DNA from: a virus
Virus record (IMG/VR): IMGVR_UViG_3300017763_000046
Location: 1 to 41,121 of that record
Length of the DNA stretch: 41,121 bases
Strand: one strand, 5' to 3'
Shown: positions 3,669 through 40,212 of the stretch, piece after piece
Layout: every line of letters begins with the position of its first letter
Numbering within the stretch: the first letter of the stretch is position 1
Position numbers and translations under genes: made by a program
Notes under the pieces: generated by a model
Database searches by the model: none
Seen by the model: only the letters and a program-made list of their open reading frames with translations
What the model was told of the DNA's origin: nothing

Positions 3669-3682
3669 GTGTAAAGGTATTT
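3669..3682 (+). promoter_or_regulatory. Late-type promoter motif GTGTAA
   Basis: GTGTAA at 3669-3674 is followed by eight bases and then the ATG at 3683. No -35 box or Shine-Dalgarno sequence is evident. The same motif and spacing precede at least six other structural genes. Confidence 0.65.
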
Positions 3683-4876
3683 ATGGCAGTAGAGGGAGCA
3701 CACGATTCAAATATATACATAGATGGAGGGATAGTAACGTTTCAGCTGTTAGCACCTAATTATTCTGCCGTAAATAATAAAACTTTTACTTTTACAAGCT
3801 CACTCACTGCTGATACTCATGACGAAGATCCGTCGAAGCGCTATGAAACATATCAAAACGTATTTGTTTATGAAGAAACAATCGGAAATGTGCAGAACCA
3901 ATACTGGTTTGAAAAAATTAATGATACTAGTGATTCCGCCCATGGCTATTGGGTTATGCATAACATAACTTATAATAGTAGCACACAATTTATCGATCTT
4001 GGCCAGCTTACTATAGTGTCTAATCAATCACATATAAATAATCCATACGAAATAGATTTTAGCACAGTACCGCCGTTTGGTGCATTTTCTGGTGCCTCAA
4101 TAACCGCTCTAACTAGAGCTATTAGAAAATTAAATTCTATTCAAAACATTTCATTTAACCAAGATGTTCAAGAAACTCCAGCTTTAGTGGTGGGGCAAGA
4201 AATAAGCCCAACTCAAATAGACGGCCCCACACAAACAACAGTTTCTGTAGATAAAATTTTAAACAACAATGATTTTATAAGAACTTTAGTTGGAAAAAGT
4301 GATGTGTCTGGTCAATTTGAATATGGAGATAATTTTTTAAGCTTTAATAAAACTTGTTTAAATAATTTCTCTGTTAGCGCTACAATCAATGAATTGCCCC
4401 AAGCATCTTTTGATTTTACTATTTATGGATCATTAAGTGGAACCTCGAATTCATTATCATCTACTGCAGTGAGTGACAATGCCATAGAAGAAATAAACCC
4501 CGAAGGATTGTTAGTGACATTTGACAAGCAATCAACCAATGCTGTCCAGTCTTTCAATTATTCGGAAATTATCAATAAACAAGCTACCTATGGAATAGGT
4601 TCTAATGAGCCAAGTGACATACAAACAGTCGGACCAATTATCCAAGAAGCTTCAATAGCTATTGAAGTCGAGGATTACGAACCAGAAGAAACATTTTCAT
4701 TCTTGAGTGGATCTAAAGATAGAAACAGGACGATTAAAATGGAAATAAGTGGAGAAAACTCAATTTTAAATACATTTCAATTAGAAAACGGTCATTTAGT
4801 TAGCGAAAATGTTGGAGTTGGCGTTGGAGGGACAATTGTTGCAAATCTAAAGTACAGGGGCTATAAAAAAGTGTAA
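3683..4876 (+). CDS. Tail tube-like structural protein, 397 aa
   Basis: The product is rich in beta-strand-type sequence (Ser, Thr, Asn) without membrane segments. About residues 150-255 contain a module with IQNISFNQDV, LVVGQE and FSVSATI. About residues 285-395 contain a second copy beginning VQSFNYSEI with ATYGIGS. The same two-module plan occurs in the proteins at 4885, 18422 and 33553, one of which sits in the tail-tube position. I infer a virion protein of the tail tube fold, perhaps a minor or tip tube protein. The first 140 residues are extra and unidentified. It is led by a late-type motif and followed by a motif that includes its own stop codon. Confidence 0.6.
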   Translation: MAVEGAHDSNIYIDGGIVTFQLLAPNYSAVNNKTFTFTSSLTADTHDEDPSKRYETYQNVFVYEETIGNVQNQYWFEKINDTSDSAHGYWVMHNITYNSSTQFIDLGQLTIVSNQSHINNPYEIDFSTVPPFGAFSGASITALTRAIRKLNSIQNISFNQDVQETPALVVGQEISPTQIDGPTQTTVSVDKILNNNDFIRTLVGKSDVSGQFEYGDNFLSFNKTCLNNFSVSATINELPQASFDFTIYGSLSGTSNSLSSTAVSDNAIEEINPEGLLVTFDKQSTNAVQSFNYSEIINKQATYGIGSNEPSDIQTVGPIIQEASIAIEVEDYEPEETFSFLSGSKDRNRTIKMEISGENSILNTFQLENGHLVSENVGVGVGGTIVANLKYRGYKKV

Positions 4877-4884
4877 TAATAACT
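4871..4884 (+). promoter_or_regulatory. Late-type promoter motif GTGTAA
   Basis: GTGTAA at 4871-4876 contains the stop codon of the preceding gene and is followed by eight bases and the ATG at 4885. The motif continues as GTGTAATAATA, similar to an extended -10 box. Confidence 0.7.
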
Positions 4885-5739
4885 ATGGCATATATTTCAT
4901 ATACGGATGTACCACTTTATTTCGGAACGGTCGCGAATACCATCACTCTCCCAGGAGAAGGAGATGCACTCAATAAAAGCGTTATTGCACAACAAGTTCA
5001 ACTTAATTACACTCCCAATATCGCTCCAGTAAGGGTTGTGGGCAAAATCCCTACAAAAGACAACTTTAATCTTGCTGGCCCTCCTAACGCTTCTCTTTCA
5101 TTTAGTTGTTATCTGGATGCTGGCGAATTTAATCCAAGTGATTATACTGGAGATATAGGACATTTAGGTGCAACTTTTCGCCTTGGAGATGCAGCTAACG
5201 GTATTGTTGGTTCTGGAGCTTTTCTAAATTCTTTTTCTTATACGCTAACACCGTATGCCCCCGTTTTGATTCAATGTGATTTCGCTATTTATAATCCAAT
5301 GACCACAACTACTGCGGGTGGAACGATCGCATCTGCGGGTGTTGATACTGTTTTAGATGCCGCTGCTTTTGGGGATTACGCCCATGGAGCTTATTCGACA
5401 TTTAACAAAGGATCATTAAGCGATATCGAGGTTTTTGAGGCTATACAGTATCAATACACCGCTCAACGTCTTCCTGTCTACGAAGTTGGATCATACAGTA
5501 TTACAAAGTGCCAATTAATTACAGAAGAACAAACACTAAGTATTCAAGGAGATAATGTTCAAGCACTTGTCCCAATTACTGGCTCAAACCCTGGATCGCA
5601 GAATATTGTACTTCAAAACTCAAACAGTGACGCACTACTTACAACAGACATTACGGGCAGATTAAATTCAGAGAATGTCTCCATTCAAGGTGGGGATTTG
5701 GCTAGAGGATCAGTTACTATTACACAGCTATTAAAATAG
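4885..5739 (+). CDS. Tail tube-like structural protein, 284 aa
   Basis: This beta-rich soluble protein has two related modules. The first (about residues 33-142) begins VQLNYTPNIAPVRVVGKIPT and has SGAFLNSFSYTLTP. The second (about residues 185-280) begins IQYQYTAQRLPVYEVGSYS. They line up with the modules in 3683-4876, 18422-19570 and 33553-36267. The sequence is richer in GC and uses more C- and G-ending codons than its neighbours, as do the capsid genes, which suggests high expression. It could be the major tube protein or a decoration-like tail protein. It has its own late-type motif upstream and one downstream for phoH. Confidence 0.6.
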   Translation: MAYISYTDVPLYFGTVANTITLPGEGDALNKSVIAQQVQLNYTPNIAPVRVVGKIPTKDNFNLAGPPNASLSFSCYLDAGEFNPSDYTGDIGHLGATFRLGDAANGIVGSGAFLNSFSYTLTPYAPVLIQCDFAIYNPMTTTTAGGTIASAGVDTVLDAAAFGDYAHGAYSTFNKGSLSDIEVFEAIQYQYTAQRLPVYEVGSYSITKCQLITEEQTLSIQGDNVQALVPITGSNPGSQNIVLQNSNSDALLTTDITGRLNSENVSIQGGDLARGSVTITQLLK

Positions 5740-5754
5740 TGTAATAGTAGTAGG
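5739..5754 (+). promoter_or_regulatory. Late-type promoter motif GTGTAA
   Basis: GTGTAA at 5739-5744 is followed by ten bases (TAGTAGTAGG) and the ATG of phoH at 5755. The AGG directly before the ATG is too close to act as a normal ribosome binding site. Confidence 0.65.
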
Positions 5755-6447
5755 ATGTCAAATTTGGAATTTAGGCAGTTGAATCAAAAAATAAGGTTTA
5801 AGGAACGCAAGTTTAAGTTTAGCCAAAATCAAGTAGATTTTTTAAAAACTGCTCTTGATGATAAAACCAAGCTCATGTTTCTTGCTGGGCCAGCTGGAAC
5901 CGCAAAGACTTATATGGCCGTATATTCGGCTTTACAGTCTATTATAAGCTCTGACCTAGAGAAGGGTGTTCTTTACATCAGAAGTATAGCTGAGAGCTCG
6001 CAGAGAAGCCTTGGTTCACTGCCTGGCTCTATTGATGAAAAGTTCGGGGTATTTGCTGGGCCGTTTTATGATAAGCTCGATGAAATGTTACATCCTCAAG
6101 ATATAAAATTTTTAAGAGACAAAAAGCAGTTCGAATGTATGCCAGTTAATTTTGTGAGAGGCGCAAACTGGAACGATTCGATTGTTATTATCGACGAAGC
6201 TCAAAACTTTACTCATAATGAACTGATGACTGTATTGACTAGAATTGGAGAAGATTCAAAAATTATTATCTGTGGAGATATGATGCAAAGCGATATTAAA
6301 AATAGCGGATTTTCAAATATATTTGGAGCTTTCGATGATGAAGAGTCTAAAGAGAAGGGAATATATTGCACTACATTTGGAACTGAAGATATTAAACGAA
6401 GTGAAATATTAAAATTTATTGTAAAGAAACTGGAAGATAAAATTTAA
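5755..6447 (+). CDS. phoH: PhoH-like P-loop ATPase
   Basis: The 230-aa product has a Walker A motif GPAGTAKT at residues 45-52 and a Walker B motif IVIIDEAQN at 143-151. A GD pair after a hydrophobic strand (IIICGDMMQSD, about 170-180) and an arginine-containing GANW segment complete the PhoH/RecD-like helicase core. The length fits the PhoH family. Phage phoH genes are common in marine phages; their biochemical role is unsettled, with RNA helicase or phosphate-starvation links proposed for the bacterial family. It sits between a tube-like protein and a zinc-ribbon/sigma pair. Confidence 0.9.
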   Translation: MSNLEFRQLNQKIRFKERKFKFSQNQVDFLKTALDDKTKLMFLAGPAGTAKTYMAVYSALQSIISSDLEKGVLYIRSIAESSQRSLGSLPGSIDEKFGVFAGPFYDKLDEMLHPQDIKFLRDKKQFECMPVNFVRGANWNDSIVIIDEAQNFTHNELMTVLTRIGEDSKIIICGDMMQSDIKNSGFSNIFGAFDDEESKEKGIYCTTFGTEDIKRSEILKFIVKKLEDKI

Positions 6448-6464
6448 AAAATTATTTTTAAACT

Positions 6465-6476
6465 TATAATTATAGT
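6465..6476 (+). promoter_or_regulatory. Possible TATAAT promoter before the zinc-ribbon gene
   Basis: A perfect TATAAT (6465-6470) lies six bases before the ATG at 6477, the same geometry as the early promoters. The -35 region is only an AT-rich TTTAAA. This could give the sigma-like gene separate, earlier expression from the late structural genes around it. Confidence 0.4.
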
Positions 6477-6794
6477 ATGATTAAATATTGTTCAGAATGT
6501 GGCACTAAAGTTGAATACAAGTTCAGCCCCCCAAAGTTTTGCTCAAATTGCGGGCATCCAATGGGTGTTGCACAAAATGAATCTAAACCTTTAGATAGAA
6601 ACGTGTCTTCCCAAAGAAAGTCTCAAGCTATCAACGATAATGAAACTGATGCAGAGTCAGTACCAAATATTTCTAAATTAGAATATGAGATAGATGACTT
6701 CGGAGCATCTTCCCAACAAACCCTAGGTTCGCTGCACGGCAAAACCGCACCAAAAAGAAAAACTAGAATTGTAAGAGATATTGATAACTTGTAA
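6477..6794 (+). CDS. Zinc-ribbon protein, 105 aa
   Basis: The N-terminus has two CxxC knuckles: C5/C8 (YCSECG) and C22/C25 (FCSNCG), giving a zinc ribbon in the first 30 residues. The rest is polar and probably disordered, ending with a basic patch (KRKTR). Its stop overlaps the ATG of the sigma-like gene as TAATG, so the two are probably made together. A role with the phage sigma-like protein in transcription is possible, by position only. Confidence 0.75.
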   Translation: MIKYCSECGTKVEYKFSPPKFCSNCGHPMGVAQNESKPLDRNVSSQRKSQAINDNETDAESVPNISKLEYEIDDFGASSQQTLGSLHGKTAPKRKTRIVRDIDNL

Positions 6795-9373: not shown

Positions 9374-11220
9374 GCTGGGATACAGGAAATCAAAAACCTT
9401 TAAGGAGAGAGCCGATTAACCAGCAGATTATGGATCTCGAGGGATATCTGGAGGATACTAAAGCTAAAATTTGGTTATATAAATTTATGAAGGAAAATGT
9501 AACCTTCACTACAGAACTACTTACTGGCATTGAGCTATTTCCGTTTCAACACATGGCGGTAAAAGCTATGATGGAAAATGACTACTTCTTGGGTATCTGG
9601 TCTCGTGGTATGTCTAAATCTTTCTCTACTGGTATTTTTGCTCTGTTGGATGCGATGATGAATCAAGGTGTTCACATTGGAATAATTTCTAAATCATTTA
9701 GACAGTCTAAGATGATTTTCAGAAAGATAGAAGATATATCGCAAGATCCTAAAGCTGAACTATTTAGGCAATGTATAGGTAAGGTTAGTAAGTCCAATGA
9801 TGAATGGTCCATGCAAATTGGCAAGAGTCGTATTACCGCATTACCGCTTGGTGATGGAGAAAAGCTTCGTGGTTTTCGTTTTCAGCGTATCATTATTGAT
9901 GAGCTTCTACTTATGCCAGAAAAAGTATTGAACGAAGTTATTATGCCGTTCCTAGCTGTTGTAGAAAACCCAACAGAGAGACAAAAAATTAAAGACGCAG
10001 AAGACGCGATGATTGAGGCTGGAAAGATGACAGAAGAAGAGAGGACGGAGTGGCCATCAAATAAAATGATTGGACTGTCTTCAGCATCTTATAAGTTCGA
10101 GTATCTCTATAAAATGTATCAAGCCTATGAAAATATGATCTTTAACCCTGGGGCAAAAAATCAAGGTAGAAGATGCATTATGCAATTTAGTTACGATTGT
10201 GCGCCAAAGGCTTTGTATGATGAAAACTTAATATCCCAAGCAAAAGGAACAATGAGTCAGTCGCAGATTGATCGAGAATTCAACGCTCAATTTACAGACG
10301 ATAGTGCTGGTTATTTCAAAATAAGCAAAATGGCAGAATGCACAATTGAAGATGGCGAGTCTCCTGCTGTAGAGGTGGCGGGAGAAAAAGATGCTGAATA
10401 TATTATGGCATTTGACCCGTCTTGGTCGGAGTCGGAGACTTCTGACGATTTTGCTATACAAGTGATAAAGCTCATGCCAGAGAAAAAGAAAGGTGTAGTT
10501 GTCCACAGTTATGCCCTTCCTGGTACAAATTTAAAAAAGCACATGACTTACTTTAAATACCTTTTAGATCATTTTAATATTATTATGATTGTGGGAGACT
10601 ATAATGGAGGTGTTCAGTTTATAAATTCATGTAATGAAAGTGACATGTTCAAGAAGGAGAAACTAGAAATAGGCGTCTTTGATCCAAAGTTAGATAATCC
10701 CCACGATTATGAAAAAGATTTAAGAGATGCTAGAAGGGGTTACAACAAAAGCAGTAATACTATATGTATATTAAGAAAGCCAGTATCCAACTGGATCAGA
10801 AGCGCAAATGAAATGTTACAAACAGCTTTTGATAGGAAGAAGTTATACTTTGCAGCTACAGCAATGGATGACAACTACTCGATGCAGAAAGCCAAAAAAA
10901 TTCCAATTAAAGAGTTGAAATTCTCTAAGTACGAAGACGAAAAGAATGTCGGTGCTAAAATGATTGATTTTATTGAGCACCAGAAAGATATGATTGACTT
11001 AACAAAAGCTGAATGTGCACTTATACAAGTAACTTCTTCCGCTGGAGGAACACAGAGCTTCGATTTACCTAGTAATCTAAAAAGACAAAAGGGAGTAGAT
11101 CGACCTAGAAAAGACTCTTATTCCGCTATAGTGTTAGGTAACTGGGGAATGAATATCTATTACGATATGATGGATTTGCCAGAAGAGAGGGCGGCGGGCT
11201 TCACGCCTATGTTTATATAA
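9370..11220 (+). CDS. Terminase large subunit
   Basis: The 616-aa product has a packaging ATPase domain: the Q-motif-like FPFQHMAV at 57-64, a degenerate Walker A SRGMSKS at 78-84 (in terminases Arg before the loop is common) and Walker B RIIIDEL at 173-179. The RNase H-like nuclease domain follows: MAFDPSWS around D349, DD at 359-360 and IVGDYNGG around D410. The length fits T4-type terminases. It powers DNA packaging through the portal and cuts the concatemer. It overlaps the nuclease gene by four bases and precedes the portal gene. Confidence 0.92.
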   Translation: MSWDTGNQKPLRREPINQQIMDLEGYLEDTKAKIWLYKFMKENVTFTTELLTGIELFPFQHMAVKAMMENDYFLGIWSRGMSKSFSTGIFALLDAMMNQGVHIGIISKSFRQSKMIFRKIEDISQDPKAELFRQCIGKVSKSNDEWSMQIGKSRITALPLGDGEKLRGFRFQRIIIDELLLMPEKVLNEVIMPFLAVVENPTERQKIKDAEDAMIEAGKMTEEERTEWPSNKMIGLSSASYKFEYLYKMYQAYENMIFNPGAKNQGRRCIMQFSYDCAPKALYDENLISQAKGTMSQSQIDREFNAQFTDDSAGYFKISKMAECTIEDGESPAVEVAGEKDAEYIMAFDPSWSESETSDDFAIQVIKLMPEKKKGVVVHSYALPGTNLKKHMTYFKYLLDHFNIIMIVGDYNGGVQFINSCNESDMFKKEKLEIGVFDPKLDNPHDYEKDLRDARRGYNKSSNTICILRKPVSNWIRSANEMLQTAFDRKKLYFAATAMDDNYSMQKAKKIPIKELKFSKYEDEKNVGAKMIDFIEHQKDMIDLTKAECALIQVTSSAGGTQSFDLPSNLKRQKGVDRPRKDSYSAIVLGNWGMNIYYDMMDLPEERAAGFTPMFI

Positions 11221-11246
11221 AAAACTTAACAAAGTTACTTTTAAAA

Positions 11247-11270
11247 GTGTAATTAACTTTATAATAGGTT
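11247..11270 (+). promoter_or_regulatory. Composite promoter before the portal gene
   Basis: GTGTAA (11247-11252) and, seven bases later, a perfect TATAAT (11260-11265) precede the ATG at 11271 by 18 and 5 bases. The portal gene may be read from either. AGG at 11266-11268 is very close to the start codon. Confidence 0.55.
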
Positions 11271-13235
11271 ATGGCCAAAAGAAAATATAATAAAAAATCC
11301 AACTATTGGAACAAATTTACAAAAGTCTCTCCACAAATTTCGGAGTCTAAAGAAAATGTAGAGCCAGCTACAATGGGTGAAGCATACCATGTTTCTCAAG
11401 CATCATACAACCGATCTGGTTCTATAAGTAACTTATCATCAACAAATACATCTACTCGAATTAATCGATCCTCCGTTTCGGCCCCACTTAATAAATATAG
11501 TCAAATTCGAGGAGGACTTCTCCCTTATGAGATTTCATCTGACGGAATCAATGTTAGGGAGGCTATCGAGCTTTGCCAAAAGGCATACGCAAACGTACCT
11601 ATTTTTAGAAACACTATTGATATGATGTCAGAGTTCGCTAATGCGGAACTATATCTAGAGGGAGGAAACGCTACATCAAGAAACTTTTTTGAAAAGCTTT
11701 TGGACAGAATTAAAATTTGGGATTTAAAAGACCAGTATTTTAGAGAGTATTATAGAAGTGGCAATATTTTTCTTTATCGCGTTGATGGCAAGTTTAGCCT
11801 AGATGATTACAAGAAGTTTTCTCAAAATGTATCAGAAGGGCCTTCCTTGAATAAGTTCCCACTAAAATATATTGTTCTAAACCCTTTCGAAATTGTAGCT
11901 AAAAGAAGCACCGTGTTCAATACAAAAGATGGAGCATATGCCAAGATCCTTTCTGAGTTTGATATGGAAAGACTATCAAACCCTAAAAATGATTATGATA
12001 AAGAAGTGTTCGAAGCCCTAGATCCAGAAGTGCAAAAGCAGATTAAGGATGGCGCATACTTTAAAGATGGTCTTAAAATTAATCTAAAGAACGAAAAGAT
12101 TTCTTATAGCTTTTACAAAAAACAAGATTATGAGCCATTTGCTATTCCTTTTGGATATCCCGTTCTTGAAGACATAAATGCCAAGCTCGAAATGAAAAAG
12201 ATGGATCAAGCCATCATGAGAACCGTCGAGAATGTTATTCTTATGATCACAATGGGAGCAGAACCAGACAAGGGTGGGATCAACCCAAATAATGTCAAGG
12301 CTATGCAAAAACTTTTTCAAAATGAATCAGTTGGAAGAGTGCTGGTTTCAGACTATACAACAAAGGCAGACTTTGTTATTCCAGATATCAATAAGGTTGT
12401 CGGCCCAGGAAAATACGAAGTTATTAATAAAGACATCAAAGAAGGATTGCAAAATATCATTCTTAACGATGACAAATATAATGGCGCAGAAATCAAAGCT
12501 AGAGTATTCTTAGATAGATTAAAAGAAGCTCGTGAAGCTTTTATCCAAGATTTTTTACAGCCAGAAATTAGAAGGATAGCAAAAGACCTGGGATTCAGAT
12601 CCTATCCAACTGTCAAATTTAAGGATATTGATCTCCGCGATGAAGTGCAGCTCATGAGAGTAGCCACAAGACTTATGGAGCTTGGAGTTGTCACCGCAGA
12701 GCAGGGAATGGAGTTATTCAATACTGGCAGATTTCCACTTGCCCAAGAGCTAGAAGGCGCACAGAAAAAGTTCGTCGCACAAAGAGAAAAAGGGTATTTC
12801 AATCCAATAGTTGGGGGCGTACCGATGATTGATGACGAAAGCCCTAGCGAGCCAACAGATTCTCAGAAACCAAACAAGGGTATGTCTGGTAGACCAGAAG
12901 GTTCTAAGGATGAATTTTCTAGAGAAAATATTCAAGCTACTATTTACGAAGTTGAAGCTTTAAACTCACTAGCAAAAGAAAAAATGCTAGAAATATATGA
13001 TTCAGATTCACTAAATGAAGACCAGGAAAAAATGGTTAGCAAATTATGCGAATCTATTGTATGCGCTTCAGATAAAGAAAATTGGACAGAAAGTCTCGTT
13101 TCTTGTGTAAATGATTTTAGTCAAATAGAAAAACTTGGAGCTATGGAAAATATATTAAGTATTTCTGAAGCCCATCAACTAGAAATTTATCCATCAGCAA
13201 TTTTATACCACTCAAAAAACTATGAAAGAAATTAA
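11271..13235 (+). CDS. Portal protein
   Basis: The 654-aa product lies between TerL and the protease, the usual portal place. It has a basic, disordered N-terminus, then portal-like features: VREAIELCQKAYANVPIFRNTID, DQYFREYYRSGNIFLYRV, KYIVLNPFEIV, and later a helix with DRLKEAREAFIQDFLQPEIRRIA. These match what I know of large-phage portal proteins. The C-terminal 130 residues after a Pro/Ser-rich linker (about 520-545) are acidic and helical and may be the barrel or a separate module. It forms the packaging channel and head-tail vertex. It overlaps the next gene by 14 bases. Confidence 0.85.
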   Translation: MAKRKYNKKSNYWNKFTKVSPQISESKENVEPATMGEAYHVSQASYNRSGSISNLSSTNTSTRINRSSVSAPLNKYSQIRGGLLPYEISSDGINVREAIELCQKAYANVPIFRNTIDMMSEFANAELYLEGGNATSRNFFEKLLDRIKIWDLKDQYFREYYRSGNIFLYRVDGKFSLDDYKKFSQNVSEGPSLNKFPLKYIVLNPFEIVAKRSTVFNTKDGAYAKILSEFDMERLSNPKNDYDKEVFEALDPEVQKQIKDGAYFKDGLKINLKNEKISYSFYKKQDYEPFAIPFGYPVLEDINAKLEMKKMDQAIMRTVENVILMITMGAEPDKGGINPNNVKAMQKLFQNESVGRVLVSDYTTKADFVIPDINKVVGPGKYEVINKDIKEGLQNIILNDDKYNGAEIKARVFLDRLKEAREAFIQDFLQPEIRRIAKDLGFRSYPTVKFKDIDLRDEVQLMRVATRLMELGVVTAEQGMELFNTGRFPLAQELEGAQKKFVAQREKGYFNPIVGGVPMIDDESPSEPTDSQKPNKGMSGRPEGSKDEFSRENIQATIYEVEALNSLAKEKMLEIYDSDSLNEDQEKMVSKLCESIVCASDKENWTESLVSCVNDFSQIEKLGAMENILSISEAHQLEIYPSAILYHSKNYERN

Positions 13236-13674
13236 AAACCCACTCGAAGCAAATATCGATCGTTCAAACGGAAATATTGAAATTTCCATCGCCAAGAAAT
13301 ATAGTGAAGCGGAAGCTCCCGTATTTGAAAAGTTTATGGGCATGTGTGCAATGTATGACACATACGCAGTTAACACAGCCGAAGAAGATGACAAGGGAAC
13401 TTACAAATCTTGTTCAACTTCATACGCAAAAGAAATTCAAGCTTTATTCGAAAAGATAGAAGCTAATTTATTTAGTCAAAAGCCGAAGCATATGCTTGCA
13501 GGACTATCTGACGAGCAAAAGAAAAACCTACCAGTAGAACTACAAAAAGCTATTGTAAAAAAGCTAAAATCAGAAGGCAAAATTACCAAAGACATGGACG
13601 CCAGTTTGTTTGAGCCAAAAGGTGGAGGCGTAGCCAGTCTTTTTGCACCGAAGGGTGGACCTGGAGTAATGTAA
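13222..13674 (+). CDS. Hypothetical protein between portal and protease, 150 aa
   Basis: The start at 13222 overlaps the portal gene by 14 bases. Residues about 20-90 are helical and acidic; the second half is basic (KKNLPVELQKAIVKKLKSEGKI). The C-terminus carries two similar short elements, SLFEPKGGGV and SLFAPKGGPG, as a small repeat. There is no membrane segment and I recognise no family. From its place it is probably an assembly or packaging-accessory protein, perhaps cut during head maturation. The stop codon lies inside the promoter-like motif of the following gene. Confidence 0.7.
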   Translation: MKEIKNPLEANIDRSNGNIEISIAKKYSEAEAPVFEKFMGMCAMYDTYAVNTAEEDDKGTYKSCSTSYAKEIQALFEKIEANLFSQKPKHMLAGLSDEQKKNLPVELQKAIVKKLKSEGKITKDMDASLFEPKGGGVASLFAPKGGPGVM

Positions 13675-13682: not shown

Positions 13683-15242
13683 ATGCAGTATAAATACACT
13701 ACAACTTTTAATTTCGAAGTTAAGGCTTGCGAAGAGATAGCTGGTATAAACTTAAGCCAAGCTAACATACAAAATCTTCGTTCGTTAATTCCTACGTCTG
13801 TAGATCTAGAAAAGAATATTGATCTTATGGGCGTGGCTTTTAATGCTGCGGTTGTAAACGAGTTTAATAAAAATGGTGATGGCATAGATACAAAAACAGC
13901 TATTGATTCTATTCAGCAGTTTATTCATAAACCTACAAATATAGAACACAATAAGAAAAAGATTGTCGGCCATATCGTTAATGCTGGATTTAGTGATTAT
14001 TCGGATAGCACTATTTTAATTAATGTAGATGAGACCGAAAAAGATCCTTTTCATATAGCATTGGGCGCTGTAGTTTATAAAACTGTTGATAAGGACTTTT
14101 TCGATTTACTAGAAAAAAGCACCAATCCAAAAAACAAAATGCACAATACTGTTTCCGCTAGTTGGGAAATCGGTTTTAGTGAATATCAAATCGCGGTAGG
14201 TAGTAAGAATTTAAAGGACGCAAAAATAATTTCAGACCCCAAAGAGATACAAGAAATGAGGGGTATGCTAAAAGCTTTTGGAGGGAAAGGCGTTACGGAT
14301 GAAGGTGAGCCTATTTATCGTTTAATCACTGGTCAAGTTTATCCTCTAGGTATAGGTTTTACATTAAAACCAGCCGCTAATGTTAAGGGCGTCATTAGCA
14401 ATGAATTTGAAAAAACCGAGACAGAAAAAGAAGTAATTGAAGAAGCTGTTTCGGACAAAGAAAAAACGCAAGCCGCGCAATTAATAAAAATAACTGACAA
14501 AATTTCACAAAATTTAAAAAATACTGTAAACAATACTAAAATTATGGACTTAGAAACTCTACTATCAGAAATAAAAGCGTCTCTTGTTGAAAAGAAATTT
14601 TCAGAAGAGGCAATCGCTGGCATGACGGCAACTTTTGCTGACGCCATTAAAACTAAAGATGATGAGTACAAAGCTTCTCTTGAAGCTGCGGAACAAGAGA
14701 AGGCTGAAATCGCATCCGCGAAAGAAGAGCTTCAAGCTTCTGTAGAATCTATTAAGGAAGAGCTTAAGACTGCTCAAGAACGCATCGATGCATTTGAAAG
14801 TGAAAAAGCTGCTCAAGAAGCGGTTGCCACATTTAATGCTCGTATGGAAGAAATTGATTCTGTTTATGATCTCGAAGAAAGCGACAGCGCATTTATCGCT
14901 GAAAAGATTAAAGGACTTGACGCAAGTGAAGAATCCTTTGCATCTCTAAAAGGTGAGCTTGAAGTTTTTTGGGCATCGAAGAATAAGGAAGCAAAAGCAA
15001 AACAAGAAGAAGCAATCGCCGCTCGCGTCGAAGCTGAAATCGAAAAGCGCCTTAATACATCAGAAGCATCTGAAGTCGTAGCTGAAGAAGCCACTGCTGA
15101 AGAAGTTGATGTTGAAGAAGCTCTTGAAAATGCAGAAGCTACCGAAGAATCTCTTCCTAATAATAACGAAGCTCAAGCTTCTAAAACAACTTTGAAGGAC
15201 AAGTTCGCTGCTGCGTTTAGCCGCGAAAATGTTCTTGGATAA
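13683..15242 (+). CDS. Prohead protease fused to scaffold protein
   Basis: The 519-aa product falls into two parts. Residues 1 to about 255 are protease-like: GVAFNAAVVNEFNKNGDGI, a histidine in PTNIEHNKKKIVGHIVNA, then HNTVSASWEIGFS, where the Ser in the TVSASWE strand is a candidate nucleophile. This His/Ser order fits the herpesvirus/T4-gp21-like prohead protease clan. Residues 288-519 are a Glu/Ala/Lys-rich coiled coil typical of a scaffold, ending in a basic, head-targeting-like segment (LKDKFAAAFSREN). The protease would process the scaffold and free the head interior. A nested scaffold start at 14544 is described separately. Confidence 0.8.
   Translation: MQYKYTTTFNFEVKACEEIAGINLSQANIQNLRSLIPTSVDLEKNIDLMGVAFNAAVVNEFNKNGDGIDTKTAIDSIQQFIHKPTNIEHNKKKIVGHIVNAGFSDYSDSTILINVDETEKDPFHIALGAVVYKTVDKDFFDLLEKSTNPKNKMHNTVSASWEIGFSEYQIAVGSKNLKDAKIISDPKEIQEMRGMLKAFGGKGVTDEGEPIYRLITGQVYPLGIGFTLKPAANVKGVISNEFEKTETEKEVIEEAVSDKEKTQAAQLIKITDKISQNLKNTVNNTKIMDLETLLSEIKASLVEKKFSEEAIAGMTATFADAIKTKDDEYKASLEAAEQEKAEIASAKEELQASVESIKEELKTAQERIDAFESEKAAQEAVATFNARMEEIDSVYDLEESDSAFIAEKIKGLDASEESFASLKGELEVFWASKNKEAKAKQEEAIAARVEAEIEKRLNTSEASEVVAEEATAEEVDVEEALENAEATEESLPNNNEAQASKTTLKDKFAAAFSRENVLG
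14524..14543 (+). promoter_or_regulatory. Internal late-type motif before the nested scaffold start
   Basis: CTGTAAACAATACTAAAATT stands directly before the in-frame ATG at 14544. The motif before the tail tube gene (minus strand, 19591 to 19571) is CTGTAAACAATATAAAATAT. The shared CTGTAAACAATA and the similar distance to the ATG suggest a real internal start signal. Confidence 0.5.
14544..15242 (+). CDS. Nested scaffold protein (in-frame, C-terminal part of the protease ORF)
   Basis: The in-frame ATG at 14544 would give a 232-aa protein beginning MDLETLLSEIKASL, exactly where the protease part ends and the coiled coil begins. The protein is dominated by Glu, Ala and Lys heptads (about residues 45-110), with a very acidic region near 170-215 and a basic C-terminus. 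This is the composition of scaffolding proteins. Making the scaffold from an internal start in the protease gene is well known in lambda (C and Nu3). Here a late-promoter-like motif precedes the start, so it might be a separate transcript. No Shine-Dalgarno sequence is visible. Confidence 0.55.
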   Translation: MDLETLLSEIKASLVEKKFSEEAIAGMTATFADAIKTKDDEYKASLEAAEQEKAEIASAKEELQASVESIKEELKTAQERIDAFESEKAAQEAVATFNARMEEIDSVYDLEESDSAFIAEKIKGLDASEESFASLKGELEVFWASKNKEAKAKQEEAIAARVEAEIEKRLNTSEASEVVAEEATAEEVDVEEALENAEATEESLPNNNEAQASKTTLKDKFAAAFSRENVLG

Positions 15243-17113: not shown

Positions 17114-17133
17114 GTTGAAAAGTAAATTATGAA

Positions 17134-17148
17134 GTGTAATATATATAT
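17134..17148 (+). promoter_or_regulatory. Late-type promoter motif GTGTAA
   Basis: GTGTAA (17134-17139) is followed by nine bases of alternating T and A and the ATG at 17149. It restarts transcription after the capsid terminator. Confidence 0.7.
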
Positions 17149-19570: not shown

Positions 19571-19591
19571 GATATTTTATATTGTTTACAG
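19571..19591 (-). promoter_or_regulatory. Late-type motif before the tail tube gene
   Basis: CTGTAA (19586-19591 on the minus strand) followed by ACAATATAAAATATC leads to the ATG at 19570. It is a variant of GTGTAA with 15 bases to the ATG and is almost the same as the motif inside the protease gene at 14524. Confidence 0.5.
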
Positions 19592-19612: not shown

Positions 19613-20461
19613 TTAAGAGCGAGGAAATCTTTGTGTAGATATGTCAAAGTCTATAAAGCCGACTTTAATGTCTCCAGGTATAGACGTTTGCGCCCTTTGT
19701 GAAAATTTTGAAACAGTGACATCATCTATAAAAAATGAGCCATCTGTGTAGGATTCGGCTAGTCCAGTATAATTATATGAACCTCCCTTTATGTCACCAT
19801 ATTCTGTTGATGGGTGACCGCTAAATGGTATTTTAGGAACAATTTTTCTAGCAGAATCTGCAAATATAGATAAAGCTCCATCTAATTGATAATCACTGTC
19901 TGCCAGTACAACAGCTTTGATCGTGGAGTTTGTTTGGTCCATACCTCCAAGTTCGAACCCTTCATTTCTACTAAATTCTACATTCAAAAATATTGCTGGA
20001 GTAACTTGGTCATAGGGTTCTATGCCGCTCATTGTGGGGGTTCCGTATCTGCTGTTTAATTTAAATTTGTTTTCAATGATTAAATCTTCTTCTGTTTCGT
20101 TTGTCAGATACACATTAAAATCTTTTACTGCAAAGGTGCCAGTTAATGTATCTCCTGCGCTGACAACGCTTCCAGTTTCAATAAGTCTGCCATTCTCAAA
20201 ATCAAAAACAATATCATTAGCCCTGCCGCTGCCTTCAAAGTCTGTTGGGATTATTGGGTTTATTGCTCCAGTAATTGAAGAGTCATTTACCCATTGTTTA
20301 TAGTTACTTTGAAGTGAGATGTAACTATTTGGTAATCTGCTATCTGATTGGGCGTAAAGTGTTCCAGTTTTATTCGAATAAGCTTCTCCCTTTTGTAAAA
20401 GTTCGTGATCGAACCATAAAAAGAAGCTAGTCATTAGCTCATGTTGATACTGAGGTTTCAT
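19613..20461 (-). CDS. Tail/neck protein candidate, 282 aa
   Basis: The first 25 residues form a helix with HELMTSFFLWFDHELLQKG. The rest is beta-rich with polar loops: QSNYKQWVNDSSITGA, FDFENGRLIETGSVVSAGDT and KDFNVYLTNETEEDLIIEN. The C-terminus has DDVTVSKFSQRAQTSIPG and then a hydrophobic strand. No family is recognised. Its place between a tail-completion candidate and the tube gene suggests a tail terminator or another tail-neck junction protein. It is preceded by a late-type motif that overlaps the stop codon of the upstream gene by one base. Confidence 0.6.
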   Translation of the reverse strand: MKPQYQHELMTSFFLWFDHELLQKGEAYSNKTGTLYAQSDSRLPNSYISLQSNYKQWVNDSSITGAINPIIPTDFEGSGRANDIVFDFENGRLIETGSVVSAGDTLTGTFAVKDFNVYLTNETEEDLIIENKFKLNSRYGTPTMSGIEPYDQVTPAIFLNVEFSRNEGFELGGMDQTNSTIKAVVLADSDYQLDGALSIFADSARKIVPKIPFSGHPSTEYGDIKGGSYNYTGLAESYTDGSFFIDDVTVSKFSQRAQTSIPGDIKVGFIDFDISTQRFPRS

Positions 20462-20476
20462 AAATATTATTTACAC
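20462..20476 (-). promoter_or_regulatory. Late-type promoter motif GTGTAA
   Basis: GTGTAA (20471-20476 on the minus strand), nine bases (ATAATATTT) and the ATG at 20461 repeat the geometry of the other late-type motifs. Confidence 0.7.
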
Positions 20477-21066
20477 TAGGTAAGCTGTAAGTTCTCGAAT
20501 TCTTTCTTATACTTTTTTAAAAGAGCTGATATATACTGAGTGTTTCTAAATTTTGTTCCACCTTTTCTTACTCTTCTTGGTGATTGTATTCCTAAGCCCG
20601 ACCTACTATTTTCTCTTTCTACTTTTAAATAATACCCAAGACCAGAAATACCACTTTCAATACCCTTGGCCCAACTTCTTCCTGGCGCCCAAGGCATTGG
20701 AGTCACGTCAAAAACATCTTTTGCATCTGGAATATAAATAGAAAATTCAATAGAATTAAGTTTGGCAGTAGCAAATTCAAAGCGAGTTTGCTGCAGTATA
20801 TCTTCAATAGCTTTGGTTGGGTCTCTAAACCCCGATTCAAAGCCAATAAAAGAAAATAAATTAGTAGCTCCTCCCAAAGTCCCGCTTATATTTTCCGAGC
20901 TTACTCCCTGTTTGATTTCTCTTGTAACTGGATGGTTTAAGAATTCAGCTATCATTTTATTTTTGATTTTCTGAAAAGCCGCTTTACCTTGTTTTTGTAT
21001 TTGGACTCTGGCAACTTTAGGTGTTTGCCTTTTTAAACTAGCTATAATTTGAGGATTTAAAGCCAT
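20476..21066 (-). CDS. Tail completion protein candidate, 196 aa
   Basis: The start is basic and helical (SLKRQTPKVARVQIQKQGK), followed by FLNHPVTREIKQG, ENISGTLGGATNLFSFIGFE and then strands with FSIYIP and MPWAPGRSWAKGIESGISG. The C-terminus is Arg/Lys rich (RRVRKGGTKFRNTQYISALL). I have seen the NHPVTRE...SGTLGG...LFSFIGF pattern in hypothetical neck-region proteins of marine phages. Size, basic start and position resemble HK97 gp10-type tail completion proteins. The function is inferred from context. Confidence 0.6.
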   Translation of the reverse strand: MALNPQIIASLKRQTPKVARVQIQKQGKAAFQKIKNKMIAEFLNHPVTREIKQGVSSENISGTLGGATNLFSFIGFESGFRDPTKAIEDILQQTRFEFATAKLNSIEFSIYIPDAKDVFDVTPMPWAPGRSWAKGIESGISGLGYYLKVERENSRSGLGIQSPRRVRKGGTKFRNTQYISALLKKYKKEFENLQLT

Positions 21067-21068
21067 TA

Positions 21069-21857
21069 TTATACCGAAGCGTCTTGTAGTTCTTCTATTG
21101 GTTTTAGGTAGAAGTGGTAGTATTGAGGCCCAAATATACCAGTTGGATTTCCTTTAGATACAATCTCATATTTACCTCCCTCAAATTCACATCTTTTTGC
21201 TTCTTTGAGTAAATTAAATCCTGCAGCATCTACAGTTATTCTTACAGAACCATCGACTAATTCTATATTTAATTGACTATTAATACCCCCGTCAGCAAGG
21301 TTTGCTTCTTTGGCGTCTATGTATTTGATTCTTGCTTTTATAGTGTGTTGAACAGCGGTTGTTGTGGTCGTTTTGTTGCCAAAAACGCTCCTACCATATA
21401 CTCCATTAAATGTGTCTCCTATAACAAATTCTGTAAGTGTCAAGCTGCTCCAGGTCATTTCATATGGTTGCGATACTGATGGATCAGTACTCTGTTTAGA
21501 TATATAGTTTGATACTGCATCCCCAATGCCAGGATCGTTGTCACTGCCATCTGTTATCTCCCAGAGATATTGTACAAGGTTAGGATCTGATTCAGTTCCA
21601 ACAGATTCCTCGACACGAGTTATATCACCAGATCCATTTTCTTGGGTATAAAAGTTAGCGCTTGTTTGTGTATAAGTTCCATTTAAATGTGCGTTATCGC
21701 CAGTAAAACCACTTACCGTTAATTGTCGATTAAGACTAATTAATACTTTTTTTCCTTCTTCGTAAACTGTGATGCTTCTAGCAAAAGTTTCGTGGATATC
21801 GTCAATAATAGCGCTAATGGTGTTTTTTTGAGAGTCTGAGATGAGAGAAGTGGGCAT
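21069..21857 (-). CDS. Head-tail joining protein candidate with an inserted domain, 262 aa
   Basis: The N-terminus (residues 1-48) has a helix and strands with IIDDIHETFARSITVYEEGKK. The C-terminus (about 170-262) has ARIKYID, NIELVDGSVRITVDAAGFN, CEFEGGKYEIVSKGNPTGIF and GPQYYHFYLKPIE, which reads as one small beta-barrel neck domain. Between them about 110 residues (VSGFTGDNAHLNGTYTQ to EFVIGDTFNGVYG) look like a separate beta domain inserted in a loop. It starts at the divergent late promoter pair and leads the minus-strand neck-tail block. The function is inferred from position. Confidence 0.6.
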   Translation of the reverse strand: MPTSLISDSQKNTISAIIDDIHETFARSITVYEEGKKVLISLNRQLTVSGFTGDNAHLNGTYTQTSANFYTQENGSGDITRVEESVGTESDPNLVQYLWEITDGSDNDPGIGDAVSNYISKQSTDPSVSQPYEMTWSSLTLTEFVIGDTFNGVYGRSVFGNKTTTTTAVQHTIKARIKYIDAKEANLADGGINSQLNIELVDGSVRITVDAAGFNLLKEAKRCEFEGGKYEIVSKGNPTGIFGPQYYHFYLKPIEELQDASV

Positions 21858-21892
21858 ATTTACTTTTACACTTTTTGTGTAAATTAGTTATT
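21858..21892. promoter_or_regulatory. Back-to-back late-type promoters (divergent)
   Basis: TTACAC TTTTT GTGTAA (21866-21882) is an inverted pair of the GTGTAA motif. On the minus strand eight bases separate GTGTAA from the ATG at 21857. On the plus strand ten bases separate it from the ATG at 21893. One 17-base palindrome therefore could fire both gene blocks. Confidence 0.75.
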
Positions 21893-23407
21893 ATGTATGA
21901 AAAAATTTTAAAAGGGAAATTTAATCCAAAAAAATTTGGTAGCGTTAAAGTTGGAAAAAATGCAATCAATCGGCATCATAGTAAAGATGAATCATTATAT
22001 GGACATTTAAGTAAAATTGATTGCAAAAAAGACCCAAATTTAAATGATTATGTCAGTTACCCAGATTTAAAAAATACTCATCCTCAACATTTTGAAATAA
22101 AAGAGGGAGAGGCCTTACTGATTCCTAAGAAATGGTGGCATTATGTTAGAAGTTATGATGGTTGTTATTTTGCAAATTTTTGGACACATATCAATATTGG
22201 TGAAGAACCCAAGATAATAAAACATGGCATAAAATTTGACCAACAGTCTATAGAGCCCGAAAGAAAAATATCAGTTTGGGTTTATAACAAAAAAAAATCT
22301 CGTATGGTTGAAAAGACTTTTCAACAATTTATTGAGGATGATAAAAAAGAAGAGTATTTGTGGACGTTAAAAAACTACAAAGGATTAAATCGAAATAAAG
22401 AATTAAAAGAAAATTTAATTAAAAAAATAAAAGTACCAGAAAAAATTTTAAAAACAAATGAAAATTTTGAATATAATTTTGGAGTTTGTCCCAAATATCA
22501 TCAAACAGATTTACATTATGATGAAGAGTGGGGTTTTCTTTGTGTAACAAAAGGCTATAAAAAAGCGATACTTTTTCCGCCTTCAGATTATGAATATTTA
22601 TACCCCATTGAATGGGAAAGGTATAAATGGAAAAACTCAAAAAACATAAAATGTAATTACAATTATTATCGAAAAGAAGATATTCTATTAAGTGGAAAAA
22701 ATTCTGGTTCTCTTTTGTATGAAACATGTAAGAAAAATAATTTAATTTTATATTCTATATCTAAAATTATCTTTGACTGGCATAAAAGTGATTCTGAAAA
22801 TAAAACTATTTATGGAGTTAAAAATATCAACGGAAAATATAGTTGGGAGCTATATAATTACGAACCTAAAGATAAAAATGTAAACAGAAAAATTTTAGAT
22901 TCGGTTGAAATATTAACAGAAAGGCAAAAGAATGGAAGCAACATTGAATCTATAACAGATTCTTACTATTATGATAAAGTAGAAGGCGATACTGTTTATG
23001 GGACATTAAAAAGAAGTAATACGATATATACAGACAAACCCACTCAATTACAAGAAAGGGGCTATTGGATAATAGATACATATAACAATTTTGTGACTAA
23101 TTTTGATAAAAATTACAAACATTTAAAATACAGTAAAGAAATTTGTGATTGGGTTAAAAACGAATTAATAAGAAAATATAAGACTGATTATTTCTGCATA
23201 CATCAAAAAAATAATGACGAGTTTTATTGTCAATTTATAGGTATACCTAAAGAAGATTTTTTAAAATTTTTAAAAGAATATAAATATGATAAAGGTTTGA
23301 TAGATAAGTACGAAAACAATGAATATAACATATCCAATGAAATTGCTATTATTTTTTGCAGAAAAACTCTAAAAGTTCTCAGAACAGCTTTTTATGGCAT
23401 AATATAG
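21893..23407 (+). CDS. JmjC/cupin-8-like protein with permuted halves, 504 aa
   Basis: The ATG at 21893 is chosen because it lies ten bases after a GTGTAA motif; a TTG further up falls inside the motif. Residues 55-100 carry the C-terminal half of a JmjC/cupin-8 domain: HFEIKEGEALLIPKKWWHYV (67-86, H83) and FANFWTH. Residues 195-240 carry the N-terminal half: HQTDLHYDEEWGFLCVTKGY with an HxD pair (H208, D210), then KKAILFPP and LYP. In normal FIH/JmjC enzymes HxD comes first and the distal His second. The rest (from 260) is Lys/Tyr/Asn-rich and unidentified. It may be a 2-oxoglutarate oxygenase or a non-catalytic relative. Very AT-rich. Confidence 0.65.
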   Translation: MYEKILKGKFNPKKFGSVKVGKNAINRHHSKDESLYGHLSKIDCKKDPNLNDYVSYPDLKNTHPQHFEIKEGEALLIPKKWWHYVRSYDGCYFANFWTHINIGEEPKIIKHGIKFDQQSIEPERKISVWVYNKKKSRMVEKTFQQFIEDDKKEEYLWTLKNYKGLNRNKELKENLIKKIKVPEKILKTNENFEYNFGVCPKYHQTDLHYDEEWGFLCVTKGYKKAILFPPSDYEYLYPIEWERYKWKNSKNIKCNYNYYRKEDILLSGKNSGSLLYETCKKNNLILYSISKIIFDWHKSDSENKTIYGVKNINGKYSWELYNYEPKDKNVNRKILDSVEILTERQKNGSNIESITDSYYYDKVEGDTVYGTLKRSNTIYTDKPTQLQERGYWIIDTYNNFVTNFDKNYKHLKYSKEICDWVKNELIRKYKTDYFCIHQKNNDEFYCQFIGIPKEDFLKFLKEYKYDKGLIDKYENNEYNISNEIAIIFCRKTLKVLRTAFYGII

Positions 23408-23414
23408 CTTTTTT

Positions 23415-23444
23415 GTGTAAATATACATAGGTATAAGGATATTT
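23415..23444 (+). promoter_or_regulatory. Late-type motif with ribosome binding site
   Basis: GTGTAAATATA (23415-23425) lies 24 bases before the ATG at 23445. AAGGAT (23435-23440) gives a Shine-Dalgarno-like site four bases before the ATG, so this transcript probably has a normal leader, unlike most others here. Confidence 0.6.
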
Positions 23445-24469: not shown

Positions 24470-25439
24470 TGAAAATTTAGCAGATATTATAGCCGAGATA
24501 TTTGATGGGGTCACTGTCTTGAATTCAAGCTTTGGCCCCATTTATGTTAGGCATTTTGGTCAGCTAGAATTAAGAAGAACTTTCTCTGAAAGAAAAAAAT
24601 ATTTAGAGCAAGCCAAAAATAGAGGGCTTATGTCAGAAAAAGAATCTTTAGATCTCTTATACAAAGACGAGATGTGGACCCCAGAGTCCGAAGAGTCAGT
24701 GGAAAAAAAGAAAAAATTTATAGAGAACTTAAATAAAGGGCTTGGCAGAATAAAAATACCTTCCAAAAGAGAAGAACATAAAAAAATGATAAAACGAGAA
24801 ATGGGAGTTCTCGAAGAATTAGAAAAAGAAAGGTCGACACTTGTTGGTTTAACAGCAGAGAAGTACGCACAGAAAAAAGTTAACCAGATTTTCTTTGAAA
24901 ACTTATTATTTGAAGATAAGGAATTTAAAAAATCAGTGTTTAGGGATTTAATCTATTCAGACACAGAAAAAGAATATGAGTTTAATATGCTGCAAGAGCA
25001 ATTCTTTACAAGAATGTCTGACGACAATATTTCTAAAGCCGCCCTTTCGCCGTTTTTTTCTCCATACTTATCTTATAGTGAAAATGTACACGATATGTAT
25101 GGAAAGCCTATAAAAGATTTGTCAGCATTTGAATTAAAACTACTGACGTACGCTAGAACATTTTTAAATATTTTTAAAAATGCAACTAAAGAAATTCCCA
25201 CTCATGTAGCGAAAGATCCAGAGTTGTTGTTAGATTTTCACGAAGCTCAGAAAAATGATGGAAAAAGCTCAAAAAAGGGCTCAGATGGAGACGGTGGGAC
25301 AACTTATTTTGGAGCTAATAAACAAGATATTGCTCAAATGAAGGCGGAAGATGAAGATGCTGTCGATTTAACAGATGAAATGAAGAAGCGAGGAGGCACT
25401 TTGAATATGAAAGAATTCATGGATTTGCATGGTGTTTAG
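24462..25439 (+). CDS. Tail assembly chaperone candidate (second), 325 aa
   Basis: A helical, highly charged protein: GPIYVRHFGQLELRRTFSER at about residues 25-44, a coiled coil at 78-130, FFSPYLSYSENVHDMYGKPI at about 197-216, LLTYARTFLNIFKNATKEIP, and a C-terminal Ser/Gly/Asp linker (NDGKSSKKGSDGDGGTTYFG) followed by an acidic helix. It overlaps the first chaperone candidate by eight bases and ends directly before a GTGTAA motif for the tape measure gene. No family match is recognised. A tape-measure chaperone is the best positional guess. Confidence 0.6.
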   Translation: MNDENLADIIAEIFDGVTVLNSSFGPIYVRHFGQLELRRTFSERKKYLEQAKNRGLMSEKESLDLLYKDEMWTPESEESVEKKKKFIENLNKGLGRIKIPSKREEHKKMIKREMGVLEELEKERSTLVGLTAEKYAQKKVNQIFFENLLFEDKEFKKSVFRDLIYSDTEKEYEFNMLQEQFFTRMSDDNISKAALSPFFSPYLSYSENVHDMYGKPIKDLSAFELKLLTYARTFLNIFKNATKEIPTHVAKDPELLLDFHEAQKNDGKSSKKGSDGDGGTTYFGANKQDIAQMKAEDEDAVDLTDEMKKRGGTLNMKEFMDLHGV

Positions 25440-25454
25440 GTGTAATACCATTAT
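25440..25454 (+). promoter_or_regulatory. Late-type promoter motif GTGTAA
   Basis: GTGTAA (25440-25445), nine bases (TACCATTAT) and the ATG of the tape measure gene at 25455. It directly follows the stop codon of the preceding gene. Confidence 0.7.
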
Positions 25455-36731: not shown

Positions 36732-36742
36732 TAGGGTGTAAA

Positions 36743-37078: not shown

Positions 37079-37106
37079 AGACTTTATATTTGCAATTAGT
37101 GTGCCA

Positions 37107-38198: not shown

Positions 38199-38560
38199 TA
38201 GAAAGGAATGTCTTCGTCATTTCCTGTCGGAGTAGATGTAGAGCTTTCTGTTTTCTCGCCCTTACCGCCCATAAATTGAACGTTGTCAGCCTTAACATAA
38301 AGCTTAGATTGCTTCTTGCCATCTTTTTCCCAAGTATCTTGGACCAAGCGACCTTCTGCCAATACTTGACGACCCTTAGTAAGATACTGCTGACAAATGT
38401 CACCTAGCTTACTCCAGGCGTCTACGTCAATATAGGAAACCTTATCCTTTTGACGAGCGTCGTTTACTGCTACAACAAGGCGAGTTACATTTGTTTCGCC
38501 AGCCTTGCGCGATTCTGGATCTCTTGCGAGATTGCCTACTATTACTGTTTTACTATACAT
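38198..38560 (-). CDS. ssb: Single-stranded DNA-binding protein
   Basis: The 120-aa product begins MYSKTVIVGNLARDPESR, the standard OB-fold start of bacterial SSB, with VTRLVVAVND, YIDVDAWSKLGDICQQYL and KGRQVLAEGRLVQDTW. The C-terminus is a short Ser/Thr linker and the acidic tip NDEDIPF, which binds partner proteins in bacterial SSB. It coats single-stranded DNA in replication. Close likeness to bacterial SSB suggests acquisition from a host. It overlaps the sigma-like gene by eight bases. Confidence 0.93.
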   Translation of the reverse strand: MYSKTVIVGNLARDPESRKAGETNVTRLVVAVNDARQKDKVSYIDVDAWSKLGDICQQYLTKGRQVLAEGRLVQDTWEKDGKKQSKLYVKADNVQFMGGKGEKTESSTSTPTGNDEDIPF

Positions 38561-39667: not shown

Positions 39668-39668
39668 T

Positions 39669-39953
39669 TTATAAATTGTTTATTATACTTTTTAAAGAAT
39701 TTGAATCTTTGTGCATACCCATATCTGCGAATATCTTATCTATTCTAATCAGAATATCTGAATCTTCAAATTTTTCTTTGATTTTTTTAACCCTCATACA
39801 AGGAGAGACTAATGCCCCCTCCTCCAGGTCTTCCATTATCTTTTTTAATGCTTTTCTCGAGGCTTCATCTTCACATTCTGCTTTGACTACTGTGAACCAA
39901 TTAGCTGATGTGCATAGAAAAAAGTTGTACTTAGAATCTTCTAATTTAATCAT
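39669..39953 (-). CDS. Small protein at the head of the nucleotide operon, 94 aa
   Basis: The start at 39953 (MIKLEDSKYNFFLC) follows a TTGACA promoter by eight bases from the -10 box. The product is mixed alpha/beta: KYNFFLCTSANWFTVVKAEC, then EDEASRKALKKIMEDLEEG, ALVSPCMRVKKI and a C-terminal helix. It resembles short hypothetical proteins from cyanophage-like genomes with an SPCMRV-type segment; no function is known to me. It is the first gene of a six-gene operon (this gene, dNMP kinase, sigma-like, ssb, glycosyltransferase, hsp20). Confidence 0.65.
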   Translation of the reverse strand: MIKLEDSKYNFFLCTSANWFTVVKAECEDEASRKALKKIMEDLEEGALVSPCMRVKKIKEKFEDSDILIRIDKIFADMGMHKDSNSLKSIINNL

Positions 39954-39961
39954 ATTAATCC

Positions 39962-39991
39962 ATAATATGACATAAAGAATCTCAATGTCAA
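39962..39991 (-). promoter_or_regulatory. Early-type promoter of the nucleotide/replication operon
   Basis: TTGACA (39986-39991 on the minus strand) with TATTAT (39962-39967) after 18 bases, or CATATT (39964-39969) after 16. The ATG follows TATTAT after eight bases, so this transcript is also likely leaderless or nearly so. Confidence 0.75.
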
Positions 39992-40071
39992 GAAAAAAGA
40001 ACTTTTTCTTATTTTTTTATATATTTATTAAATATCTTATAAATAATTTAAATACTTAATATATATGTATT

Positions 40072-40103
40072 ACTCACTCGCTCACTCCGTTCGCTCACTC
40101 GCA
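40072..40103. repeat. Short direct repeats CTCACTCG in an AT-rich spacer
   Basis: CTCACTCG occurs at 40073-40080 and 40094-40101, with CTCACTCC at 40081-40088 between them. This GC-rich island stands in a strongly AT-rich gap (39954-40212) between divergent operons. It could be a protein binding site or a sequence of foreign origin. Confidence 0.5.
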
Positions 40104-40177
40104 ATACGATTAATTATACAACGAATACACGGAAAGTCAAGCCTTAAAATATATTTTTTTGTTTTTGTAAAAAATAC

Positions 40178-40212
40178 TTGACTTTTAAATATGATGGTGT
40201 AAATTCATAGGT
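40178..40212 (+). promoter_or_regulatory. Composite promoter before the ribonucleotide reductase gene
   Basis: TTGACT (40178-40183), a 16-base spacer and TAAATT (40200-40205) form an early-type promoter. GTGTAA (40197-40202) overlaps the -10 box and lies ten bases before the ATG at 40213. The gene may therefore be read in both early and late phases. Confidence 0.6.

Follow-up and report, generated by a model that had tools for sequence, protein, structure and literature searches.

In the virus record IMGVR_UViG_3300017763_000046, whose full 41,121 bases we refer to as the window (G+C content 36.6%), the genes that could be named encode a terminase, a tape measure protein, a PhoH-like protein, SSB, the small chain of ribonucleotide reductase, and two sigma-like proteins, designated P0001 and P0002. 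An earlier note on this DNA had drawn attention to a hexamer, GTGTAA, recurring 8-10 nucleotides (nt) before the ATG of structural genes, and had read it as a -10-only late promoter; the genes are called structural on the strength of the tape measure match, weak tail matches and proximity to the terminase, and for many that bear the motif no family could be named. A DNA comparison with an annotated phage collection matched no related phage, and matches to the terminase in that collection were ~25% identical. Many relatives were present in IMG/VR, however, of which we searched 27 records and read 18 at length. As these relatives share kinship and many are fragments, counts across genomes are not independent, whereas the test within the window does not depend on them. 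The phages bearing GTGTAA appear to form a large, uncultured, mostly marine family.

GTGTAA boxes in the window

Every exact GTGTAA listed in the earlier note was found at its coordinate, on the plus strand starting at 3669, 4871, 5739, 17134, 21877, 25440 and 40197 (8, 8, 10, 9, 10, 9 and 10 nt ahead of an ATG, respectively) and on the minus strand at 20471-20476 and 21866-21871 (9 and 8 nt). With one flanking base on either side, the first three plus-strand boxes occupy 3668-3675 (A-GTGTAA-A, ATG 3683), 4870-4877 (A-GTGTAA-T, ATG 4885) and 5738-5745 (A-GTGTAA-T, ATG 5755 of the PhoH-like gene). The second of these includes the stop of gene 3683-4876, and the overlap with preceding stop codons had been correctly described (the stop at 4871-4876; the first G of the copy at 5739). 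Plus-strand boxes at 17133-17140 and 25439-25446 precede ATG 17149 and ATG 25455, the start of the tape measure gene, and minus-strand boxes at 20470-20477 and 21865-21872 precede gene 19613-20461 and gene 21069-21857, the latter with a weak tail-protein match. The box at 21865-21872 stands back to back with a plus-strand partner at 21876-21883 (TTACAC-N5-GTGTAA) that lies ahead of ATG 21893. This divergent gene, a Cupin_8 (JmjC-like) gene at 21893-23407, has a late box on either side; since relatives have a single box ahead of the next gene, it looks like an inserted gene that brought its own promoter.

Two of the copies that had been set apart as distant or variant proved to be exact GTGTAA and conserved in relatives: 11247 (box 11246-11253, plus strand), 18 nt from ATG 11271 of the gene after the terminase, and 23415 (box 23414-23421, plus strand), 24 nt from ATG 23445 with an AAGGA Shine-Dalgarno (SD) sequence between box and ATG. 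The other three, ATGTAA at 13669, CTGTAA at 14524 (inside a gene) and CTGTAA at 19586 (minus strand), are not members, and were dropped because these variants show little or no enrichment ahead of ATGs in the family (1.43-fold for ATGTAA, 0.8-fold for CTGTAA). A conserved AT-rich inverted repeat (AAAGTTACTTTTAAAAGTGTAATTAACTTT) at 11220-11271 surrounds the box of gene 11271, and a conserved TATAAT follows.

The copy at 40197-40202, which had been counted as a plain member, is an exact GTGTAA but is part of a hybrid, overlapped by an early-type promoter (TTGAC-N17-TAAATT-N7-ATG, 40178-40215, plus strand) ahead of the ribonucleotide reductase small chain gene at 40213. Since the two elements overlap and both recur in several relatives, this gene is probably transcribed both early and late. 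Upstream of its promoter, at 40066-40103, is a non-coding repeat-like stretch (ACTCACTCGCTCACTCCGTTCGCTCACTCGC).

Specificity and spacing of A-GTGTAA-W

Over both strands of the window GTGTAA occurs 24 times versus 18.3 expected (first-order Markov mean), which is near chance, but at N8-10 before ATG it occurs 9 times versus 0.79 on average and never more than 4 in 200 simulated first-order Markov sequences; at this position it is thus not equally frequent in coding or shuffled DNA. Of 4096 hexamers at N8-9 before ATG, GTGTAA ranked first both in the window and in the relatives G001 and G002, and it was far ahead of all others in a scan pooled over spacings in nine genomes that counted only ATGs opening at least 60 codons. 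The 1.08 Mb of related phage DNA contained 119 AGTGTAAW-N7-9-ATG sites versus 2 for the reversed pattern, and of the 136 GTGTAA copies lying 6-14 nt before an ATG in the first 13 sequences, 117 preceded an open frame of at least 60 codons.

The hexamer is strict. Across 19 sequences GTGTAA was enriched 6.8-fold before ATGs, compared with 1.9-fold for the best of its 18 single-base variants, and AGTGTAA was enriched 11.4-fold, with 126 of 245 copies 8-10 nt ahead of an ATG. Enrichment also depended on the base after the hexamer (A, 7.8-fold; T, 8.6-fold; C, 2.4; G, 0.9), and we therefore write the consensus as A-GTGTAA-W. The box stays GTGTAA in relatives with 42-49% identical P0001 and 40-51% identical P0002, and it was also found in three relatives binned with metagenome-assembled genomes (MAGs). 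A second hexamer, TGTTAC, which ranked high in the group with 40-51% sigma identity, is probably conserved homologous sequence, and GTTTGT, tried as a second motif in G004, was rejected as a coding tandem repeat. No third promoter class common to several genomes emerged from the scan across hexamers and spacings, and our searches of open-licence literature found no description of an A-GTGTAA-W box.

The box also belongs to particular genes. Counting distinct ortholog upstreams, it was present in 19/19 for gene 21069, 21/21 for gene 4885, 37/44 for gene 11271, 20/29 for the PhoH-like gene, 11/13 for ribonucleotide reductase, 11/22 for gene 19613-20461 (minus strand) and 19/22 for gene 23445, where it lies 18-24 nt from the ATG; for genes 11271 and 23445 together the distance across relatives is 14-25 nt. 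In these upstreams the flanking sequence changes and the box is constant. It was absent from all 62 ortholog upstreams of the terminase, all 44 of gene 15277 and, at promoter spacing, all 33 of gene 6477, and terminase orthologs usually have AGGAG or AAGGA ahead of the ATG. From this pattern, therefore, promoter-proximal genes carry the box, and ribosome sites or coupling serve the inner genes. Ahead of gene 6477 (6440-6477 in the window), several orthologs have a TATAAT ~5-6 nt before the ATG with neither TTGAC nor GTGTAA, possibly a minor promoter type.

As the earlier note had said, no -35 box recurs. Among 65 non-redundant late upstreams, no 5-mer at any given position was commoner than AAGAA, with only 7, and upstream of the box-adjacent A the information was at most 0.29 bit at every position. 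The divergent boxes of genes 21069 and 21893 are 5 nt apart in the window and 6 in many relatives, therefore neither has a free -35 region. TTGAC was present in 27 of 30 early upstreams, a class itself chosen by containing TTGAC. These early promoters (TTGAC-N17-(C/T)ATACT-N6-8-ATG) are clustered in a separate module. At 1-2600 of the window, on the minus strand, small early genes each have their own promoter with N6/7 before the ATG. Early promoters on this strand are at 793-830 and 1260-1297 (both TTGAC-N17-CATACT-N7-ATG), 1454-1490 (TTGAC-N17-CATACT-N6-ATG), 1951-1989 (TTGAC-N18-TATAAT-N7-ATG) and 2206-2243 (TTGAC-N17-TATAGT-N7-ATG). A tRNA-Arg (TCT) gene at 3020-3093, also on the minus strand, lies amid the early genes.

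The modal distance from TGTAAW to the ATG is 7 nt, equal to that from the early -10 hexamer, which would place TGTAAW at -12 to -7 with its G at -11. SD-like words 4-18 nt before the ATG were found in 0/155 late and 0/41 early genes versus 135/905 others, a comparison biased by the box occupying part of the SD window. Since early -10 hexamers and TGTAAW are equally distant from the ATG, both early and late promoter-proximal transcripts should be leaderless, most late leaders being ~0-3 nt, and from this geometry and the absence of SD words we infer a 5' end at the AUG. The proposal of leaderless starts thus holds, by geometry, for most boxes; it does not for the boxes at 11247 and 23415, whose genes 11271 and 23445 are leadered, judging from the sequence. 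For gene 23445, most of the 22 ortholog upstreams have AAGGA or a close variant ahead of the ATG. The box therefore works with both leader and SD or without both, as a promoter would and a ribosome site would not.

Candidate sigma factors and rival readings

We hold with good confidence that A-GTGTAA-W is the sole specific element of the late promoters of this phage family, and that it would be read by a phage-encoded sigma, most likely P0002. The direct observations behind this are a motif that is position-specific, base-strict, conserved, and gene-specific among orthologs, that has no -35, that keeps the -10 spacing of a leaderless promoter and lacks SD words, together with two sigma-like proteins and an early-type promoter ahead of P0002; they bear out the -10-only late promoter that the hexamer had been taken to be. 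P0002 (38553-39110, minus strand; 185 residues, sigma2 and sigma4) is in an operon headed by a TTGAC-N17-CATATT promoter (39951-39991, minus strand), and 7 of 11 genomes had a TTGAC-type promoter ~0.9-1.0 kb ahead of the P0002 gene. It matched Sigma70_r2 with an E-value of 0.0068 (below the curated cut-off) and phrog_351 with 7e-11. Its structural model (mean predicted local distance difference test score, pLDDT, of 81) has region 2 and region 4 domains, with top Foldseek matches including sigma32, WhiG and sigmaE, and on this model the protein has the sigma70 region 2 and region 4 fold. P0001 (6794-7432, plus strand; 212 residues, sigma2, a Cys-rich insert and sigma4) lies within a late operon and matched both Sigma70_r2 and phrog_1740 with E-values of 8.5e-5; its model (pLDDT 74) suggests region 2 and region 4-like domains, and matches to extracytoplasmic function sigmas by Foldseek were consistent but had weak E-values. 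The insert between regions 2 and 4 of P0001 is zinc-ribbon-like, with PC...CPIC (CxxC...C in other lineages). Since P0002 is behind an early promoter and P0001 is inside a late operon, we favor P0002 as the probable reader; behind a TTGAC-type promoter it should be made early, as a sigma for late genes must be.

The converse, that P0001 reads the box and P0002 serves a middle class or has some other role, is possible but doubtful. P0001 is in nearly every relative, with hundreds of matches and a highly conserved region 2, and G001 has many boxes with no P0002 seen. However, G001 is also without the neighboring ribonucleotide reductase gene and so is probably a fragment, P0001 lies behind late boxes, so that its own promoter would work only once the protein was already there, and no third promoter class turned up that would require a second phage sigma.

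The remaining readings are all improbable. The box works beside the ATG just as the host-type early promoters do, and so might be a promoter for an alternative sigma of the host, whichever that is, exploited by the phage; we think this unlikely, as AGTGTAAW-N7-9-ATG is far rarer in 12 bacterial genomes (at most a few per Mb, e.g., 3 in 4.8 Mb in the Verrucomicrobiota genome G036) than in the phages, and some of the bacterial matches sit in binned phage contigs. Very unlikely, too, is a translation-initiation element, i.e., an alternative ribosome site, which the tight 8-10 nt spacing and the lack of SD in the same genes might suggest. Two conserved gene families, however, have the box 14-25 nt from the ATG, and in one of these an SD sits in between. 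Operon-internal genes have no box and the terminase uses an SD; moreover, box and early -10 hexamer are spaced alike from the ATG, and boxes stand back to back between divergent genes. That a phage RNA polymerase (RNAP) reads the box in place of host core and sigma has a precedent in phiKZ-like phages, whose own polymerases use short late motifs (PMC5312081). We give this little credence, since seven long relatives had no match to the multisubunit RNAP domain PF00562 (controls were positive in 14 genomes), there was no match to single-subunit RNAP PF00940 in a search without a positive control, and the host-type -10 geometry is accompanied by two sigma-like proteins. Least credible is an operator for a regulator of otherwise weak promoters, for although box and divergent partner form a palindrome (TTACAC-N5/6-GTGTAA), most boxes are single and directional and keep a fixed distance from one ATG, with no further promoter element recurring next to them.

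Several points do weigh against a phage sigma acting at A-GTGTAA-W. Gene class and geometry, not RNA, are the basis for the late timing and the 5' ends, the relatives are not independent samples, and the SD comparison and the PF00940 search have the bias and the missing control given above. The Sigma70 Pfam scores are under curated cut-offs, and the weak Foldseek E-values of P0001 count here as well. Region 4 of a sigma usually reads the -35, and both proteins keep a region-4-like helix-turn-helix though no -35 is seen.

Proposed mechanism and comparison with known systems

The scheme we infer takes in the start sites, the timing, the reading sigma and the host polymerase core. The host enzyme would make the phage sigma, most likely P0002, early from TTGAC/TATACT promoters, and this sigma would bind host core RNAP and direct it to the box without a -35. 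There TGTAAW would take the place of the -10 hexamer, resembling TATAAT but with G at -11, plus a G at -13. Sigma70 needs an A at -11, and with these two Gs the host sigma70 should not read the box. Transcription would start ~7 nt past the box, at or beside the AUG, so that most promoter-proximal late genes would be translated from leaderless mRNA, with SD sites or coupling serving genes deeper in operons.

The closest comparison is the T4 late promoter, TATAAATA, which is read by gp55 with host RNAP (PMC2988020). In both systems a single strict box stands at the -10 position, the -35 is not conserved, sites occur on both strands and there is a small divergent phage protein of the sigma70 family. 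The boxes differ, however (TATAAATA versus A-GTGTAA-W, in which one-base changes lose enrichment), the similarity of gp55 is confined to region 2 whereas P0002 and P0001 keep a region 4-like domain, and the box here adjoins the AUG, unlike in T4. The bacterial-type sliding clamp (PF00712) had no match in seven relatives, all possibly fragments; the T4-type clamp and gp33 were not searched. On the features tested, the A-GTGTAA-W promoter resembles a T4 late promoter in how it works yet falls outside the T4 system.

Deinococcus-Thermus and Actinobacteria have leaderless genes with a -10 region adjacent to the open reading frame (PMC12340547, PMC3160421). There, as here by geometry only, the -10 hexamer is set for an mRNA with the AUG at its 5' end, but theirs is a host promoter, whereas A-GTGTAA-W is a phage-specific hexamer with G at -11 that exists beside host-type early promoters with a -35. 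The phages phiKZ and AR9 likewise have short late motifs and some genes with both early and late promoters, as with ribonucleotide reductase here, but phage multisubunit RNAPs recognize their late motifs and leaders in AR9 span 26-491 nt (PMC5312081), while in the seven long relatives we found no such polymerase and most leaders should be ~0-3 nt.

As to the host, terminase relatives were found in MAG bins labelled Flavobacteriaceae, Verrucomicrobiales and others, and are probably phage contigs swept into these bins. The genome G036 had 18 leaderless-type TTGAC-N16-18-TATACT-N6-8-ATG promoters versus 0 for the control, resembling the phage early promoters, and such promoters were near background in Bacteroidota. 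No terminase relative was found in the order of G036, and we take a Verrucomicrobiota host as a lead only.

We lean, if modestly, towards a widespread phage clade that runs its infection largely on leaderless promoter-proximal mRNAs, using host sigma70 early and then a two-domain phage sigma that reads only A-GTGTAA-W. Leaderless early and late starts suggest that leaderless mRNAs are translated well in the host. If this is true, -10-only late transcription would have been solved a second time, separately from T4 gp55, and the system would offer a clean test case of a sigma with region 4 working without a -35 and with G replacing the flipped-out A at -11. It would also make the late regulon of a large uncultured phage family readable from sequence, which helps in calling gene starts and late genes in metagenomes.

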